This document shows positions 10,694 to 62,511 of a stretch of 64,000 nt of DNA, piece after piece. The notes beneath the pieces are model-generated. The model was not told the origin of the DNA. It ran no database searches and saw nothing but the letters and a program-made list of their open reading frames with translations. How positions within the stretch are numbered: the first letter of the stretch is position 1; each line of letters starts with the position of its first letter. Made by a program: the position numbers and the translations under genes. The DNA is from an uncultured Prevotella sp. (lineage in GTDB: Bacteria > Bacteroidota > Bacteroidia > Bacteroidales > Bacteroidaceae): NCBI GenBank assembly GCA_946540435.1, contig CAMNII010000007.1, forward strand, positions 1 to 64,000, read 5' to 3'.

Positions 10694-12574
10694 TTATTGT
10701 TTTACTTCAGTAGTCTTTTCGGGTTTAGCTTCGGAGACCTCTTCATTTGCTTCTCCGACTGTCCCTTCATGTGTTTCTCCTGAGGCCTCTTCCGGCGTTT
10801 CCCCTGCGTCCTTATCCGGTGTTTCTCCGGAGACCTCTTCGAGGGGCTCCCCTGCGTCCTTATCCGGTATGTCAGACTCGCTGTCTGTTGCCTGCGGCGA
10901 TGCGTTCTGCCCAAGGGTCTGAAGGGGTGCTGAGCGCCGTGTCGTTGTCTTCAGCTTGTTGCCATCACCCTTGCCTCTCCACTCGAAAATATCATCTTTG
11001 TGGCGGGGCCGTAGTTCTTCAAACCACACAAATTCCGGCAGTTTATACTTCTCCGGGGGTATCTGCGTCATGGGATAGAGCGTACTCTGGTGTTTTGGGG
11101 TCCAGATGCGTTCCAGCTGTCTGTCGGCAGAGGTGTACATCTTCAGTGTATCCGTTTCGGTGTAGTTCAGTCCGATGTACGAGCTGTCGCTGTCGTCGAT
11201 GGAGTAATAGATGATTTTGACATTCCCCATGGCCACGGTCCTCCTGATATTTCCGTCGATGAAATAGGCGTCAATCTCCTTTGACGATATCTGGTTGTAG
11301 TTGTCATCGGTCTTTCCCCGCTCAATGGAGAGCGCCTGCCCGATGACGTGTGCCTCACGGATGGTACTGTCGTTGGAATAGGCTTCTATACGTTCGCCCA
11401 GCAACTGACGGGCACCATTCCACACGATGGGATCATAGTACATCGTCATGCAGGAGTCCTTGGAGTTGAAGACAAGCGAGTCGCAGATGGCCTGCAGGTC
11501 TTTTCGATAGGCTCTGACGTGAGGATAGGCATGTACTTTGCGATAGAGCGAATCGGTTCCGATGTTTATGGACACGAGTTTCAGCGTGTCGGCATGCATA
11601 TAGAGGGTGTCGGGACCTTGTGAGAAGTCTTTGACCAAGGCTCGTCCCGTGGCATATCCGTAGCCTGTCTGCTCGTCGTACTGCATATACTCGCAGTTCA
11701 GGGCATTGCGGTTCAGGGTGTCTTCGTAGACCACGTTGCTGAAGGCCTCGCCGTAGCCTGTTGTCTTGTCATACAGCAGGGTATCGGCGGTAATGGCTTT
11801 TTCCTTGTCGATGATGGTCGACCTGCTGACGAGCCTCATGCGCTCCGTCTTTGTGGCATAATACCCGTTGTCGGTGTCCGCATCTGTAGTTCCTGAGGTC
11901 ATATGCGACGGACCGAGTACGTGGGCTTCAGAGATGGTCGTGTCATAGTACAGGGTATCGGTGGTGATGAGATGGTCTTCTCCCTGTAGTTTAACGTTGA
12001 AGAAGAAGCGTGCCAGGCGGGTGTCGGTATGGTATTCCCCCCAGTCGGCAACGAGTTTATCTGTTCCGTCAATGAGTGTACCTCCCTCGAAGAAGTAGGC
12101 CACCTCATAGAGTCTGTCGTAGTTCAGGCTGTCGGTATAGAGAGTCTGCTTTCGGTGTCGTAGCACGACTTTCTTTCTGGCGTGCATCTCTTGCCGTTGT
12201 CCGTCGTAGTCGCCATGGTCGCAGGTGAGCGAGAGGGTGTCACCCTGCGTATAGCGTACGTGGCCGAAGGCCTTTACGGCATTGGCTTCTTGAAAGAAAT
12301 AGGCACTGTCGCATTTCAGTGTTCCTCCCTGGTGGTGGAACACCACATTCCCGCTGACAATCTGTGCGAAGCGTGTGACGGGGTCGGGAGCGTTGATGTT
12401 GTAGCGTAGCTCGTCGGCGTGTTCCAGATAGACTCTGTCATCGCCTTTTCCCTTTCCTTTCTGGGCATTGGCGACCGTCAGGGGTAACCATAGCGCAAGC
12501 AGGCACAGAACCATTATTCTGAAGGCCCTATGCCCGCGTATGCGTTTTGTATCGTTATGTAACGGTCCTGTCAT
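10694..12574 (-). CDS. OstA-like (LptA/LptD N-terminal-like) protein with repetitive acidic C-terminus
   Basis: SGNVVFHHQGGTLKCDSAYFFQEANAVKAFGHVRYTQGDTLSLTCDHGDYDG. Confidence 0.8.
   Translation of the reverse strand: MTGPLHNDTKRIRGHRAFRIMVLCLLALWLPLTVANAQKGKGKGDDRVYLEHADELRYNINAPDPVTRFAQIVSGNVVFHHQGGTLKCDSAYFFQEANAVKAFGHVRYTQGDTLSLTCDHGDYDGQRQEMHARKKVVLRHRKQTLYTDSLNYDRLYEVAYFFEGGTLIDGTDKLVADWGEYHTDTRLARFFFNVKLQGEDHLITTDTLYYDTTISEAHVLGPSHMTSGTTDADTDNGYYATKTERMRLVSRSTIIDKEKAITADTLLYDKTTGYGEAFSNVVYEDTLNRNALNCEYMQYDEQTGYGYATGRALVKDFSQGPDTLYMHADTLKLVSINIGTDSLYRKVHAYPHVRAYRKDLQAICDSLVFNSKDSCMTMYYDPIVWNGARQLLGERIEAYSNDSTIREAHVIGQALSIERGKTDDNYNQISSKEIDAYFIDGNIRRTVAMGNVKIIYYSIDDSDSSYIGLNYTETDTLKMYTSADRQLERIWTPKHQSTLYPMTQIPPEKYKLPEFVWFEELRPRHKDDIFEWRGKGDGNKLKTTTRRSAPLQTLGQNASPQATDSESDIPDKDAGEPLEEVSGETPDKDAGETPEEASGETHEGTVGEANEEVSEAKPEKTTEVKQ
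10773..10868 (-). repeat. Two in-frame 48-bp direct repeats in the OstA-like C-terminus
   Basis: 10773-10820 and 10821-10868 encode PDKDAGEPLEEVSGET / PDKDAGETPEEASGET. Confidence 0.85.
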
Positions 12575-51549: not shown

Positions 51550-52428
51550 TCACAGGGGTGTGCTGTCGTCGATAAAGCGACGGAGCAAGCCTTCATAGCG
51601 GTCGATGCGGCGGTCGCGGAGGAAGGGCCACCAGCGGCGCACCTGCTCGGAGCGCTGCATGTCGACGTCGACGACGGCTTCTGCTTCACCGTCCTTGGGA
51701 GCACGGTAGAGCAGTTCGCCTTGCGGACCGGCCACGAAGGAGGAGCCCCAGAAGAGGATGGGCGACGGACCTTGCTCCATGCCTACCCTGTTGACGGTGA
51801 CGACGGGGAGTCCGTTGGCCACGGCATGTCCGCGCTGTACGGTGGTCCATGCCTCCCGCTGCCGTTCCTGCTCTTGCTCGTCATCCCGTGCGTCATAGCC
51901 GATGGCGGTGGGATAGATGAGCAGTTCGGCACCGGAGAGGGCCATCAGGCGTGCTGCCTCGGGATACCACTGGTCCCAGCAGACGAGTACGCCGAGTCGT
52001 CCGACACTGGTCTGGATGGGCTGGAAGCCGAGGTCGCCGGGCGTGAAATAGAACTTCTCGTAGTAGCCGGGGTCGTCGGGGATGTGCATCTTCCGATACT
52101 GTCCGGCTATGGTGCCGTCGGCCTCGAATACGACGGCGGTGTTGTGGTACAGCCCCGGCGCGCGCCGTTCGAAGAGCGAGGCTACGAGTACGACGTGGCA
52201 GTCGCGGGCCAGCTGTCCGTAGAAGGTGGTCGACGGGCCGGGGATGGGTTCTGCCAGGTTGAACAGGTCCACCTGTTCCTCCTGACAGAAGTACAGTGAG
52301 TTGTGCAGCTCCTGCAGTACGACCAGCTGTGCGCCCTTGTCAGCCACGCTGCGTATTTTCTCTGCCAGCCGCCTTTGGTTATCGGCGATATCGGCAGTAT
52401 TGTGCTGTTGTATGATGCCTATTTTCAT
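51550..52428 (-). CDS. aguB: Carbon-nitrogen hydrolase, N-carbamoylputrescine amidase-like
   Basis: VLQELHNSLYFCQ; GVLVCWDQWYPEAARLMAL; adjacent to agmatine deiminase. Confidence 0.88.
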   Translation of the reverse strand: MKIGIIQQHNTADIADNQRRLAEKIRSVADKGAQLVVLQELHNSLYFCQEEQVDLFNLAEPIPGPSTTFYGQLARDCHVVLVASLFERRAPGLYHNTAVVFEADGTIAGQYRKMHIPDDPGYYEKFYFTPGDLGFQPIQTSVGRLGVLVCWDQWYPEAARLMALSGAELLIYPTAIGYDARDDEQEQERQREAWTTVQRGHAVANGLPVVTVNRVGMEQGPSPILFWGSSFVAGPQGELLYRAPKDGEAEAVVDVDMQRSEQVRRWWPFLRDRRIDRYEGLLRRFIDDSTPL

Positions 52429-52476
52429 GATAAGAATATCTTTCACCTTTTCTTTTTTTTCATTCTTTCATTCTTT

Positions 52477-53526
52477 TCATCTTTTCACCTCCTCCGGATA
52501 CTGCATGGTGATACAGTGGATGGAGCCGTGCTGGCGGATGATGGTACGGCTGTCGACGGGAATGATTTCCCGTCCGGGGAACGCTCGCGCGATGGTGGCG
52601 CAGGCCTCATGGTCGAGGTCGGGCTGCGCATAGGTGGGTACGATGACGGCGCCGTTGATGACGAGGAAGTTGGCATAGGTGGCCGGCAACCTCTCTTCAC
52701 CGTCGTAGATGGGACGTGGCAGGGGCAGCGGCAGCAGTTGCAGCCGTCTGCCGTCGGCACTTCCGGCCAGTTCGGTGAGCTGTCGGTGGAGGGCCTGCAG
52801 GTCGTCGTAGTGCGGGTCGGCTGCGTCGTTAGTATATATATATAATAATGTACGCGAAGGGGCACATCTCACAATGGTATCTATGTGTCCGTCGGTATCG
52901 TCGCCGATGAGGTTTCCGTGGTCAATCCAGACGATGCGCTGGGCATGCAGGCGCCGTTTCAGTTCCTCCTCAATCTGTTCGCGGGTTAGCGGCTGGTTGC
53001 GATGGGAGGCAAGCAGACACTGCGAGGTGGTATAGATGGTTCCCTCTCCGTCGCTTTCTATCGAGCCTCCTTCGAGCACGAAGTCCAGGTGATCCTCATA
53101 CTGGCCGCTGAATACGTGCTGTGCATACAGCTGGCCGTTGAGGCTGTTGTCGAGGTCGGCCTTGAACTTCCCGCCCCACCCGTTGAAGCAGAAGTCCAGC
53201 AGTCGCGCCTCGTGCTGCCGCCCGACGAGGGTGATGAAGGCGTGGTCGCGCGCCCAGGTATCGTTATACCGCGCCGGCAGGATGGTGATGGGGTGCAGGG
53301 GTTGCGCCGGCAGCAGCCGTCTGACGGCTTCAGGGTCGTCGGCCGCGATGACGAGCGGCTCGAACCGGGTGACGGCCTCGGCTATCTCTAAATAGGTACG
53401 CGTGATGTCGTCGAGATAGGGAGCCCAGTCGGTACGGGCATGGGGCCACGTGAGCTGCACGGCACTCTGCGGTTCCCACTCGGCGGGCAGCCTGAACAGG
53501 GTTCTTGCAGATGATTGAGTGTTCAT
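52477..53526 (-). CDS. aguA: Agmatine deiminase
   Basis: WPHARTDWAPYLDD; NGWGGKF; DHLDFVLEGGSIESDGEGTIYTT; start trimmed to MNTQSS at 53526. Confidence 0.92.
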   Translation of the reverse strand: MNTQSSARTLFRLPAEWEPQSAVQLTWPHARTDWAPYLDDITRTYLEIAEAVTRFEPLVIAADDPEAVRRLLPAQPLHPITILPARYNDTWARDHAFITLVGRQHEARLLDFCFNGWGGKFKADLDNSLNGQLYAQHVFSGQYEDHLDFVLEGGSIESDGEGTIYTTSQCLLASHRNQPLTREQIEEELKRRLHAQRIVWIDHGNLIGDDTDGHIDTIVRCAPSRTLLYIYTNDAADPHYDDLQALHRQLTELAGSADGRRLQLLPLPLPRPIYDGEERLPATYANFLVINGAVIVPTYAQPDLDHEACATIARAFPGREIIPVDSRTIIRQHGSIHCITMQYPEEVKR

Positions 53527-53530
53527 GCTG

Positions 53531-53538
53531 CAAAAATA
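53531..53538 (-). promoter_or_regulatory. -7 element TATTTTTG, 4 nt before aguA ATG
   Basis: TATTTTTG-CAGC-ATG. Confidence 0.55.
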
Positions 53539-53651
53539 CGAAGTTTTTTTGTAATACCGCATCTTTTTGCCTACTTTTTTATCCCTCACCGGCCAGCAGG
53601 CCTGGTGCCCTCCTGCCACCCACCCTATGCATCTCCGAACAAAAAACAAGT

Positions 53652-53959
53652 TTCTCCAGATACGACTCCAAATTTCTTCAGGTACGAATCTAAGATTCAG
53701 CAGATACCACCCCAAGGTTCGGCAGGCGCAATTCTGACGTTCGGCAGGCGCAATTCTGACTTTCTGCAGGCACAATTCTGACGTTCGGCTGGTACGATTC
53801 TAAGGTTCGGCAGGCACGTTTTTCAGGTTCTCCAGACACAATCATAAGGATCGTCAAACACGAAGGTAAGGATCGTCAGACCAAAATAGGCTATTTTGAT
53901 GACCAAAATAAGCTATTTTGGTGACCAAAATAGGCTATTTTGGTCGGCCGTTCCAAAGT
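53652..53959. repeat. 22-bp-period degenerate tandem array (13 full units plus one partial)
   Basis: Units start at 53652, 53674, 53696 ... 53916, e.g. TTCGGCAGGCGCAATTCTGACG; last units are TTTTGGTGACCAAAATAGGCTA-type. Confidence 0.9.
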
Positions 53960-54031
53960 ATCGGCTGTCAAAGGCTTGGCGGAAGGGTAAAAAAACTGAG
54001 GCTTTTGTTTGTGAGTATTATAGTTTTTTTA

Positions 54032-54039
54032 TAATTTTG
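54032..54039 (+). promoter_or_regulatory. -7 element TAATTTTG, 6 nt before ATG of the TPR regulator
   Basis: TAATTTTG-CATGCG-ATG. Confidence 0.55.
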
Positions 54040-54045
54040 CATGCG

Positions 54046-55656
54046 ATGAAGTGTATTAAGAGCCTATTGACGGCACTATATATGATGCTATGGCTTGGTT
54101 GCGGAAATCCCTCTGCAACCGACCGTACCGCAGCTCTGCTCAGCGACCTTGACGCCACGCTGTCGCAACGCGACTACTATGAGTCGTTGCGTCTGCAGCG
54201 CATTGACTCGCTCAACCGGTTGTCGACAGCGGCTACCGATGCCCATGAACGCTATGAGCTCCTGCTCCGCGTGTTCGACGAATACAAGTCCTACCGTTAC
54301 GACTCTGCCTATGCCTATGCACGCCGCTGCTACGACGAGGCATTGGACATGGGCGATGAAGCCTGCATGTCGGAGGCGAAATGCGCCGTGTCATTCTGCC
54401 TGATGTCGTCGGGCATGTTCAAGGAGGCCAGCGAGATGATGGCCTCGGTACGCACCGAGGGCATGTCTCCGCGCCAGATGCGCACCTACTACTCCACCTA
54501 CTCCAAACTCTTCCAGGAAGAAGCCAACTACTCCGGCGTGGAGCCTTACTACACCACCTACACGCAACAGAGCGACCGCTACATCGACACACTGAAGACA
54601 CTGCTCAGCGCCGATGACAGCGAATGGTGGTCGCAGACAGGTGCGCAACACATGAAAAACCACCGCTTCGAAGAGGCCATCGTCACCCTCGAAGGCTATC
54701 TGTCGCGCTTTCCCGATGCCGATGTCCATGAGCGGGCCATGGTCATGGCAGAGATGGCCTGGGCATATATCCATACGGGCCGCGACGACAAAGCCCTCGA
54801 CTGCTTCATCCAATCGGCCATCTACGACACGCAGTCGTCCACACGCGAGATCACCGCACTGTTCTTCGCCGCGAAATTCATCGCACAGCAGGGCGACGTC
54901 GACCGTGCCAGCAGCTATGCCAAGCAGGCCCTCGACGACATCACCTTCTACAACGCCCGCCAACGGAAGATTGAACTCGGACAGATACTCCCCATCATCG
55001 AGCAGGAACGCTATAACGCCCTGTCGCTGCAGCGCAACCGCATCATCATCGCCGCACTGCTCGCCAGCATCCTGTTCCTCGTCGTTCTGGCCGCCATCTT
55101 CCAGATGCGCCGCCTGAACAAGAAACTGTGGCAGGCCCGACAGACCATCGCCGGGCGCAACGAAGAACTCAGACGCGTGAACGACGACCTGATAGAGGCC
55201 AACCGCATCAAAGACGTATACATCGGGCGCTCCTTCTTTGTCAATGCCGAATTCATCGAGAAGATGGAGAAGCTATACCTCACCGTGGACCGGAAGATAC
55301 AAGCCCGGCAGTACGACGACCTGCGCAAGACCGTCAACCTCACAGCACTGGAGAAAGAGCGCAAACAGATGTATGCAGCCTTCGACGAAACCTTCCTCAA
55401 CCTCTTCCCCACCTTCATCGAACAGTACAACAGGCTCTTCGACGAGAAAGACCGCCGCAAGCCGCAGGACGAGAAGTCGCTGACCTCGGAGATGCGCATC
55501 TTCGCACTCATCCGGCTGGGCATCACCGACAGCGAGCGCATAGCCCGCTTCCTCGACTACTCCGTGCACACGGTGAACACCTACAAGACACGCGTGAAGA
55601 ACAAGTCCACCGTCGAGAATGACCTCTTCGAACAGTACATCATGAAGATAGAATAA
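54046..55656 (+). CDS. DUF6377-like TPR/transmembrane/HTH-like regulator
   Basis: Lipobox-like N-terminus, TPR-like helices, TM segment, C-terminal ALIRLGITDSERIARFLDYSVHTVNTYKTRVKNKS. Confidence 0.78.
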   Translation: MKCIKSLLTALYMMLWLGCGNPSATDRTAALLSDLDATLSQRDYYESLRLQRIDSLNRLSTAATDAHERYELLLRVFDEYKSYRYDSAYAYARRCYDEALDMGDEACMSEAKCAVSFCLMSSGMFKEASEMMASVRTEGMSPRQMRTYYSTYSKLFQEEANYSGVEPYYTTYTQQSDRYIDTLKTLLSADDSEWWSQTGAQHMKNHRFEEAIVTLEGYLSRFPDADVHERAMVMAEMAWAYIHTGRDDKALDCFIQSAIYDTQSSTREITALFFAAKFIAQQGDVDRASSYAKQALDDITFYNARQRKIELGQILPIIEQERYNALSLQRNRIIIAALLASILFLVVLAAIFQMRRLNKKLWQARQTIAGRNEELRRVNDDLIEANRIKDVYIGRSFFVNAEFIEKMEKLYLTVDRKIQARQYDDLRKTVNLTALEKERKQMYAAFDETFLNLFPTFIEQYNRLFDEKDRRKPQDEKSLTSEMRIFALIRLGITDSERIARFLDYSVHTVNTYKTRVKNKSTVENDLFEQYIMKIE

Positions 55657-61833: not shown

Positions 61834-62511
61834 CTACTTCGCTTCGTCTATAACATAGAAGGCGGCCTCCGACGGATGGTCGAGCACGAGAAGCTTGGGA
61901 TCCTCCTTCGTCAGCAGCCACGTCATCCAGATGTCGCCGGCCGCTGCGGCAATAAAGAAGATTCCCCATGCCAGCATCGGCAGGCTGCCGATGAAAAGAG
62001 CGGCCACGGCAGGGACAACACCCAACAGCAGGCAAGGCATCATCGCCCCGCACATATAGCCGGGAATAGACATCGGCTCGTCACAATGACAGTAAGGAGT
62101 CAGCAGTTTCCACATCACGCCGAAACTGATACTCTTCCATCCACTCTTGGCAAAGCAGGCCCAAGTCAGGCCATGAATCAGCTCATGGACAACGATACCC
62201 ACGAACATCAACGCCAATACCCATATCCAGTTGCCAGAGCCGCCAAGCAACTCGTCAATCGGCTTCCTGTCCTTCCAAATTAGGAAGAACGGCACCAGAA
62301 ACACAACGGCTGCCACCACCATGATAACCACGGCAAAAACATTCGCCTTGACAATATCAATCGCCACCTTTCTGTAACCATCCTGCGAGTCAAACGGTTC
62401 AGTCACGCAATCATTCTGCTGGTCAACCGGTTCTGTCACGCAACCATCCTGTTGGTCAATCGCCTTCTCCGCCGTTTCCAGGCGAAGATCCTTCTCTTCT
62501 TTGTTTTCCAT
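61834..62511 (-). CDS. DUF3267-like putative membrane zinc metalloprotease
   Basis: VVHELIHGLTW (HExxH) between TM segments; start trimmed to MENKEEK. Confidence 0.8.
   Translation of the reverse strand: MENKEEKDLRLETAEKAIDQQDGCVTEPVDQQNDCVTEPFDSQDGYRKVAIDIVKANVFAVVIMVVAAVVFLVPFFLIWKDRKPIDELLGGSGNWIWVLALMFVGIVVHELIHGLTWACFAKSGWKSISFGVMWKLLTPYCHCDEPMSIPGYMCGAMMPCLLLGVVPAVAALFIGSLPMLAWGIFFIAAAAGDIWMTWLLTKEDPKLLVLDHPSEAAFYVIDEAK
62389..62454 (-). repeat. Two 33-bp in-frame direct repeats in the DUF3267 gene N-terminus
   Basis: 62389-62421 and 62422-62454 encode (Q)QNDCVTEPFD / (Q)QDGCVTEPVD. Confidence 0.8.

Follow-up and report, generated by a model that had tools for sequence, protein, structure and literature searches.

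The locus and its array

The DNA analysed here is a stretch of 64,000 nucleotides from an uncultured Prevotella sp. (the window). The array lies between aguA and a divergently transcribed gene encoding a TPR and DUF6377 regulator-like protein (Table 1), which is the location given by the initial annotation and is borne out by the Pfam matches and opposite strands of the two genes. The -7 box consensus is TAnnTTTG, and a probable -7 box was located for each gene. A nitrilase-like gene at 51550-52446 is probably aguB, and a short CTTTTCATT tandem repeat with a period of 8/17 is found between it and aguA (52441-52487). Elsewhere in the window, the intervals 10734-10868 and 62376-62459 carry tandem repeats with periods of 24/48 bp and 33 bp; the periods are multiples of three and the repeats are probably coding.

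Table 1. Features of the aguA-TPR intergenic region and its flanking genes (positions in the window)
Feature	Coordinates	Strand	Evidence
aguA, agmatine/peptidyl-arginine deiminase, outside the element	52477..53526	-	ORF; Pfam PF04371, E 2.5e-115
TATTTTTG, probable -7 box of aguA	53531..53538	-	Sequence; consensus
Variable tail, ten tandem 22-bp units	53652..53871		TRF rows 53647-53720 and 53717-53817, period 22, 0% indels
Core-proximal tail unit (unit -1) AACACGAAGGTAAGGATCGTCA, near-invariant between copies	53857..53878		Information of unit -1
Core, three tandem 22-bp units, each an odd palindrome ACCAAAATA-RGC-TATTTTGRT	53879..53944		TRF, 93% matches; inverted repeats I1-I3
Palindrome 1, ending GAT	53880..53900		Inverted repeat
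Palindrome 2	53902..53922		Inverted repeat
Palindrome 3	53924..53944		Inverted repeat
Short flank, 44 bp, two more in-phase units (..CTAAG.. / ..TTA..)	53945..53988		Information over 26 loci
TATAATTTTGC, probable -7 box of the TPR gene	54030..54040	+	Sequence comparison; conserved in G270, G278 and G245
TPR and DUF6377 regulator-like protein, flanking gene	54046..55656	+	Pfam PF19904, E 1.2e-73, plus TPR

Autocorrelation across 53652-53959 gave an identity of 0.689 at lag 22, 0.595 at lag 44 and 0.50 at lag 66, while all remaining lags between 1 and 69 were at or below 0.31. In 1000 dinucleotide shuffles of the same interval the best-lag identity averaged 0.310 (sd 0.013) and reached at most 0.380. 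The interval is the top periodicity of its kind within the window, and Tandem Repeats Finder (TRF) reported three period-22 arrays at the locus, which abut one another and contain 0% indels. The strict 22-bp period previously read from the sequence is upheld by the autocorrelation and lies far above chance. The array is non-coding, as had been proposed, and its units abut without unique spacers between them, which excludes a CRISPR identity.

The description of the locus as one array of thirteen units was correct as to the phase of the units and not as to their uniformity. The array consists of two modules sharing one frame, namely ten degenerate tail units and three palindromic core units. 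The tail unit type is CACGA..TAAG..TCG, corresponding to the pattern ....C.A....AAG..TYG... in the frame of the element, and continues in phase into the three palindromes ACCAAAATAGGCTATTTTGGT.

Dispersed copies in the source genome

The focal core was found at about 33 places in the source assembly (G000; 2.06 Mb, 66% complete). The loci of this core family, here called family A, nearly always carry three palindromes and sometimes one or four. On one side they have a conserved neighbour unit ACGAAGGTAAGGATCGT, followed by a locus-specific tail repeating every 22 bp. A second core version, ACCAAATTCGSCGATTTTGGT, displayed the identical plan. The exact two-palindrome pattern had no match outside the source genome among viral contigs and GTDB genome contigs.

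In an alignment of 26 of the G000 loci, the information per unit exceeded that under random rotation at all units from -8 through +5, with z values of 5.1 at unit -8, 25 at units -4 and -3, 59 at unit -1, 53 to 63 in the core and 32 at unit +3. Unit -1 held 28.2 bits compared with 2.7 under random rotation, and the short-flank units +3 and +4 held 12.7 and 8.6 bits compared with 2.5 and 2.1. The tail positions retained over the 26 loci were C5, A7, AAG12-14 and TYG17-19. Since this excess reaches out to unit -8, unrelated places keep a common frame and common positions over a tail of about 180 bp.

The proposed search of the source genome for further arrays of this period found many, including both the focal core and unrelated sequences. 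A total of 16 lag-22 arrays were called in 464 kb of G000, and no other period gave more than three. These arrays comprise at least three unrelated unit sequences, of which for example GAGAATACAGTGTGATCCCTAA and TGTGAGATCATCCTGTTATCAA have no resemblance to the focal one. At one place (L055:1676-1826, which coincides with L057:4327-4522), a family A core has a second array of 22-bp units about 100 bp away, with the different sequence GCTGTCAGCTGGCTTTTCCTTC.

The 22-bp period across Prevotella

Twenty-two bp was the dominant tandem period in the sampled Prevotella, with 69 arrays; this and the counts below are lower bounds, because arrays were called by an identity threshold that misses diverged ones, and counts from different species are not independent events owing to shared ancestry. 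Most of the genomes sampled were metagenome-assembled. There were 17 period-22 arrays in 560 kb of G270, and 12 in 181 kb of G278, a Prevotella relative where no other period was called. Ten further congeners contributed nine period-22 arrays, and 79 named Prevotellaceae loci contributed 15, with period 14 second (six calls). Period 14 was also second in G270, where its seven arrays are an enrichment and lie in stretches L109-L116 and L226-L245. Outside the genus, three weak lag-22 calls, one of them non-coding, were made in other genera of the family, and none was made in the sampled other families of the order. Period-23 arrays, one strong and one weaker, were observed in short flanks beside a tryptophanase-like gene in two congeners (L305:919-1178, identity 0.95; L309:3076-3179, identity 0.62).

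The units differ by species, for example GAGAAAGCTWAGCTTTCTC in G278 and AAAAGTGSCACTTTT in G350, and no in-phase motif beyond A/T-rich words was common to the array families. In the complete genome G350, a 15-mer unit pattern had 130+144 hits, whereas its reversed control had 1+1, and each of the 52 short gaps in the listed places was a multiple of 22. The arrays of G350 were neither evenly spaced nor clustered along the chromosome (CV 0.97). In G084, a two-contig genome of 2.7 Mb (largest contig 1.97 Mb), a unit pair occurred 199+194 times, and all of these 393 adjacent pairs were at exactly 22 bp. The reversed control gave none, and allowing a free gap of 0-20 bp between the units added no pair to those of the exact 22-bp pattern. 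A 22-bp step common to such differing sequences suggests that a DNA-binding protein sets the spacing.

Corresponding positions in related genomes

The focal gap was compared in three relatives, which agreed in part with the expectation that the array be present and in phase. The aguA/TPR-DUF6377 gap of G270 holds three palindromes of another version, in phase. That of G278 holds an unrelated 22-bp array with wholly different letters, which is diverged, was missed by the automatic caller and was read by eye. In G245 the gap contains no array and only the two promoters.

Among the four family A loci of G000 that could be placed in the available part of G270, a small sample, three hold a different array and one is empty; one G270 array is without a counterpart in G000. 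A further array is shared by G000 and G270 within a 7.7-kb segment (L073:11861-19577 and L237:11402-19137) over which the two genomes are 94% identical. Because the aguA-TPR genes are only 71-77% identical among relatives, and about 75-77% identical in the case of G000 and G270, this segment was probably exchanged horizontally in recent times. Its two array copies differ by exactly one 22-bp unit, i.e., by the gain or loss of a whole unit. Thus, array positions are partly inherited while their sequences turn over.

Palindromy and helical phasing

Dyad symmetry was scored against permuted unit columns in 72 pooled lag-22 arrays (the 69 from Prevotella and the three calls from other genera). The median z was 2.5, and 42 of the 72 arrays had z>2; in 37 of these 42 the axis of the palindrome fell on a base pair. 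Tail-dominated arrays scored low, and the focal array had a z of about 0. Dyad-symmetric units on a constant helical pitch, the arrangement of an operator for a dimeric protein, were thus found in the pool. As far as symmetry and pitch can tell, the spacing is compatible with cooperative protein binding along one face of the DNA, as the initial annotation had suggested. Helical phasing of A/T at 11 bp was weak (0.067 compared with -0.015) and lag 9 was likewise raised, so that intrinsic curvature does not appear to be the main feature.

Alternative explanations

The focal array is flanked by two divergent promoters and lies upstream of the -33 region of each. Its setting had led to the proposal of an array regulating two outward-facing promoters, in other words joint control of aguA and the TPR gene by an operator array acting locally. 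This proposal is very unlikely, because the core has some 33 sister copies beside unrelated genes and G245 retains both divergent promoters at the same gene pair without an array. According to counts that rest on naive ORF calls, the array-bearing gaps were 39 co-directional, 14 convergent and 6 divergent (6 of 59), while other gaps of at least 200 bp were 128 co-directional, 41 convergent and 44 divergent. Divergent gaps are therefore under-represented, and the divergent setting of the focal array is the less typical one. The preponderance of co-directional and convergent gaps agrees with an RNA-level element, i.e., transcribed 3' hairpin arrays which end or protect mRNAs, as some REP sequences do. 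So does the placement of arrays in co-directional gaps, which is nearer to where the upstream gene ends at its 3' side (median 93 compared with 200 bp). RNA folding was also better than in shuffles (z about -3). However, the two RNA strands of the focal array do not differ in how well they fold, and mismatches in the palindromes had no wobble excess on the sense strand (G.T 68, A.C 74), which together do not indicate selection at the RNA level. Rfam gave no match besides one tRNA in 16 loci, a T-run after the core is absent, and the exact 22-bp pitch would be left without a reason. An RNA-level element is therefore improbable. The orientation of family A to genes, counted by hand, was not significant (short-flank side facing a 3' end in 11 cases and away in four).

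The arrays might also be iterons on the chromosome to which plasmid-type Rep proteins bind, serving in replication control or as decoys against plasmids. Their unit length would be suitable, as iterons measure about 22 bp in several Rep_3 replicons. This explanation is exceedingly unlikely, since a Rep_3 (PF01051) gene is absent from eight array-bearing genomes (G000, G270, G278, G350, G016, G122, G345 and G028), which removes a Rep_3 initiator as partner in these genomes, and blastn searches with two arrays against 72,556 plasmids and with one array against 50,697 phage records gave no match. The foremost rival of a docking protein is a repeat that is mobile or driven by conversion, with an enzyme that would require identical geometry. 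A selfish or neutral repeat of the MITE or PINSR kind would be copied in trans by a transposase or by gene conversion; the pitch and the palindromes would be required at its ends by the enzyme, with the tails being minisatellite expansions that have no function. Dispersed copies that keep a fixed unit order, the roughly random chromosomal spacing in G350, the differing presence between relatives, the locus-specific tail expansion and the whole-unit indel all agree with this explanation, and BrickBuilt provides a precedent. Against it, no sharp ends are apparent in the family A copies. Units -1 and +3 are loosely inverted, and neither sharp ends nor target-site duplications could be defined, the empty site of G245 being too diverged. 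Most resolvable positions are common to species and carry different sequences, contrary to what fresh insertion would leave, and the description of PINSR likewise reports no terminal inverted repeats and positions mostly common to strains (PMC4755523). The Y1 (PF01797) RAYT transposase of REP elements was found in none of the array-bearing genomes G000, G278 and complete G350, which rejects a REP/RAYT identity; a GTAG/CGTC tag beside the palindromes was not evident on reading the family A units. Unrelated families at 22 bp would in any case require a constraint. We therefore regard a mobile repeat as possible, though on the unlikely side.

Proposed docking arrays for a DNA-binding protein

The best reading, to which we assign a probability of about 0.5, is that the arrays serve as docking sites on one face of the DNA for a putative dimeric DNA-binding protein and have spread as intergenic elements similar to PINSR. 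A constant pitch with free sequence, dyad-symmetric units and degenerate tails conserved in frame are most simply accounted for by such a protein. The focal array is a single copy of an intergenic element that is non-coding, dispersed and specific to the species; its body consists of palindromes on an exact 22-bp pitch, with a strong three-palindrome core and weaker tail units that are half-palindromic, locally expanded and in the frame of the core. Each unit would serve as a docking site for a dimer. The pitch of two helical turns would place neighbouring dimers on one face of the DNA, and binding may be cooperative, nucleating on the core as the strong site and extending along the weaker sites of the tail. 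The recognised sequence would change between species, with all copies in a genome changing together, whereas the pitch, the palindromic form and some of the chromosomal positions are inherited. In the cell, the arrays may mark a 3'-end boundary or organise the nucleoid or domains, or they may arise as the by-product of some copying mechanism.

Several observations weigh against docking arrays. Tail-dominated arrays, including the focal one, are barely palindromic alone, and no universal motif links the array families. The fixed unit order in the dispersed copies of G084 and G350 fits copying of whole elements equally well, one relative (G245) is without the array, and the orthology comparison covers few loci.

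A wider form of the docking reading is more doubtful. It would be a genus-wide Prevotella system with a filament- or array-forming protein which reads palindromes on an obligatory 22-bp register and whose specificity is rewired in each lineage, so that tens to hundreds of chromosomal arrays would change jointly, at positions that are conserved in part. A proposed parallel to such rewiring is that of rapidly evolving satellite sequences with the proteins that bind them.

A fixed unit length with a free sequence suggests that a physical ruler is at work, the simplest candidate being a protein. If the docking reading is true, a chromosome-wide DNA-binding system not described before would exist in Prevotella, which is dominant in the rumen, gut and mouth, at a density of one array per about 14-45 kb in the genomes measured.

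Comparison with known systems

REP, BIME and REPIN sequences are similar in being short dispersed extragenic palindromes with many copies. However, they have no fixed 22-bp tandem pitch and are tied to the RAYT transposases lacking in the three genomes named above. Rep_3 plasmid iterons resemble the arrays in being binding sites in tandem, spaced by about two turns of the helix. They differ in that the Prevotella arrays are dozens of chromosomal copies in genomes where, as far as tested, no Rep_3 protein is encoded.

BrickBuilt of Porphyromonas gingivalis is a 23-nt minisatellite in a MITE, present in 19 copies (Klein et al., 2015; PMC4596501). It is likewise a dispersed intergenic element in which tandem repeats are flanked by a leader and a tail. 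However, its unit is 23 nt instead of 22 bp and it has one sequence in one species. It also has small inverted-repeat ends matching insertion sequences, its leader and tail are non-repetitive, and no palindromic core was reported (PMC4596501).

The closest likeness is to PINSR, a 188-bp intergenic repeat with 177-184 copies per genome in one Prevotella species group, to which no function was assigned when it was described (2015, PMC4755523). PINSR, like the arrays, belongs to a Prevotella clade and is intergenic, non-coding and without terminal inverted repeats, at about 180 copies; the focal element, at about 33 places in 2.06 Mb, is also high-copy, intergenic and mostly non-coding. In contrast, the available part of that description mentions no 22-bp pitch, no palindromic units and no counterparts of other sequence across the genus (PMC4755523). 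The G084 element forms an in-phase block of about 188 bp (8.5 x 22) with about 200 hits per strand and is therefore probably PINSR or its sister, a likeness by description and not by sequence. The focal element and the G084 element have different letters. In the literature searched, PINSR was not found beyond its one describing paper and no paper describing 22-bp arrays in Prevotella was found; a genus-wide, palindrome-based 22-bp plan with species-specific letters thus appears to be new. If the arrays are docking sites for a DNA-binding protein, this would account for PINSR too.
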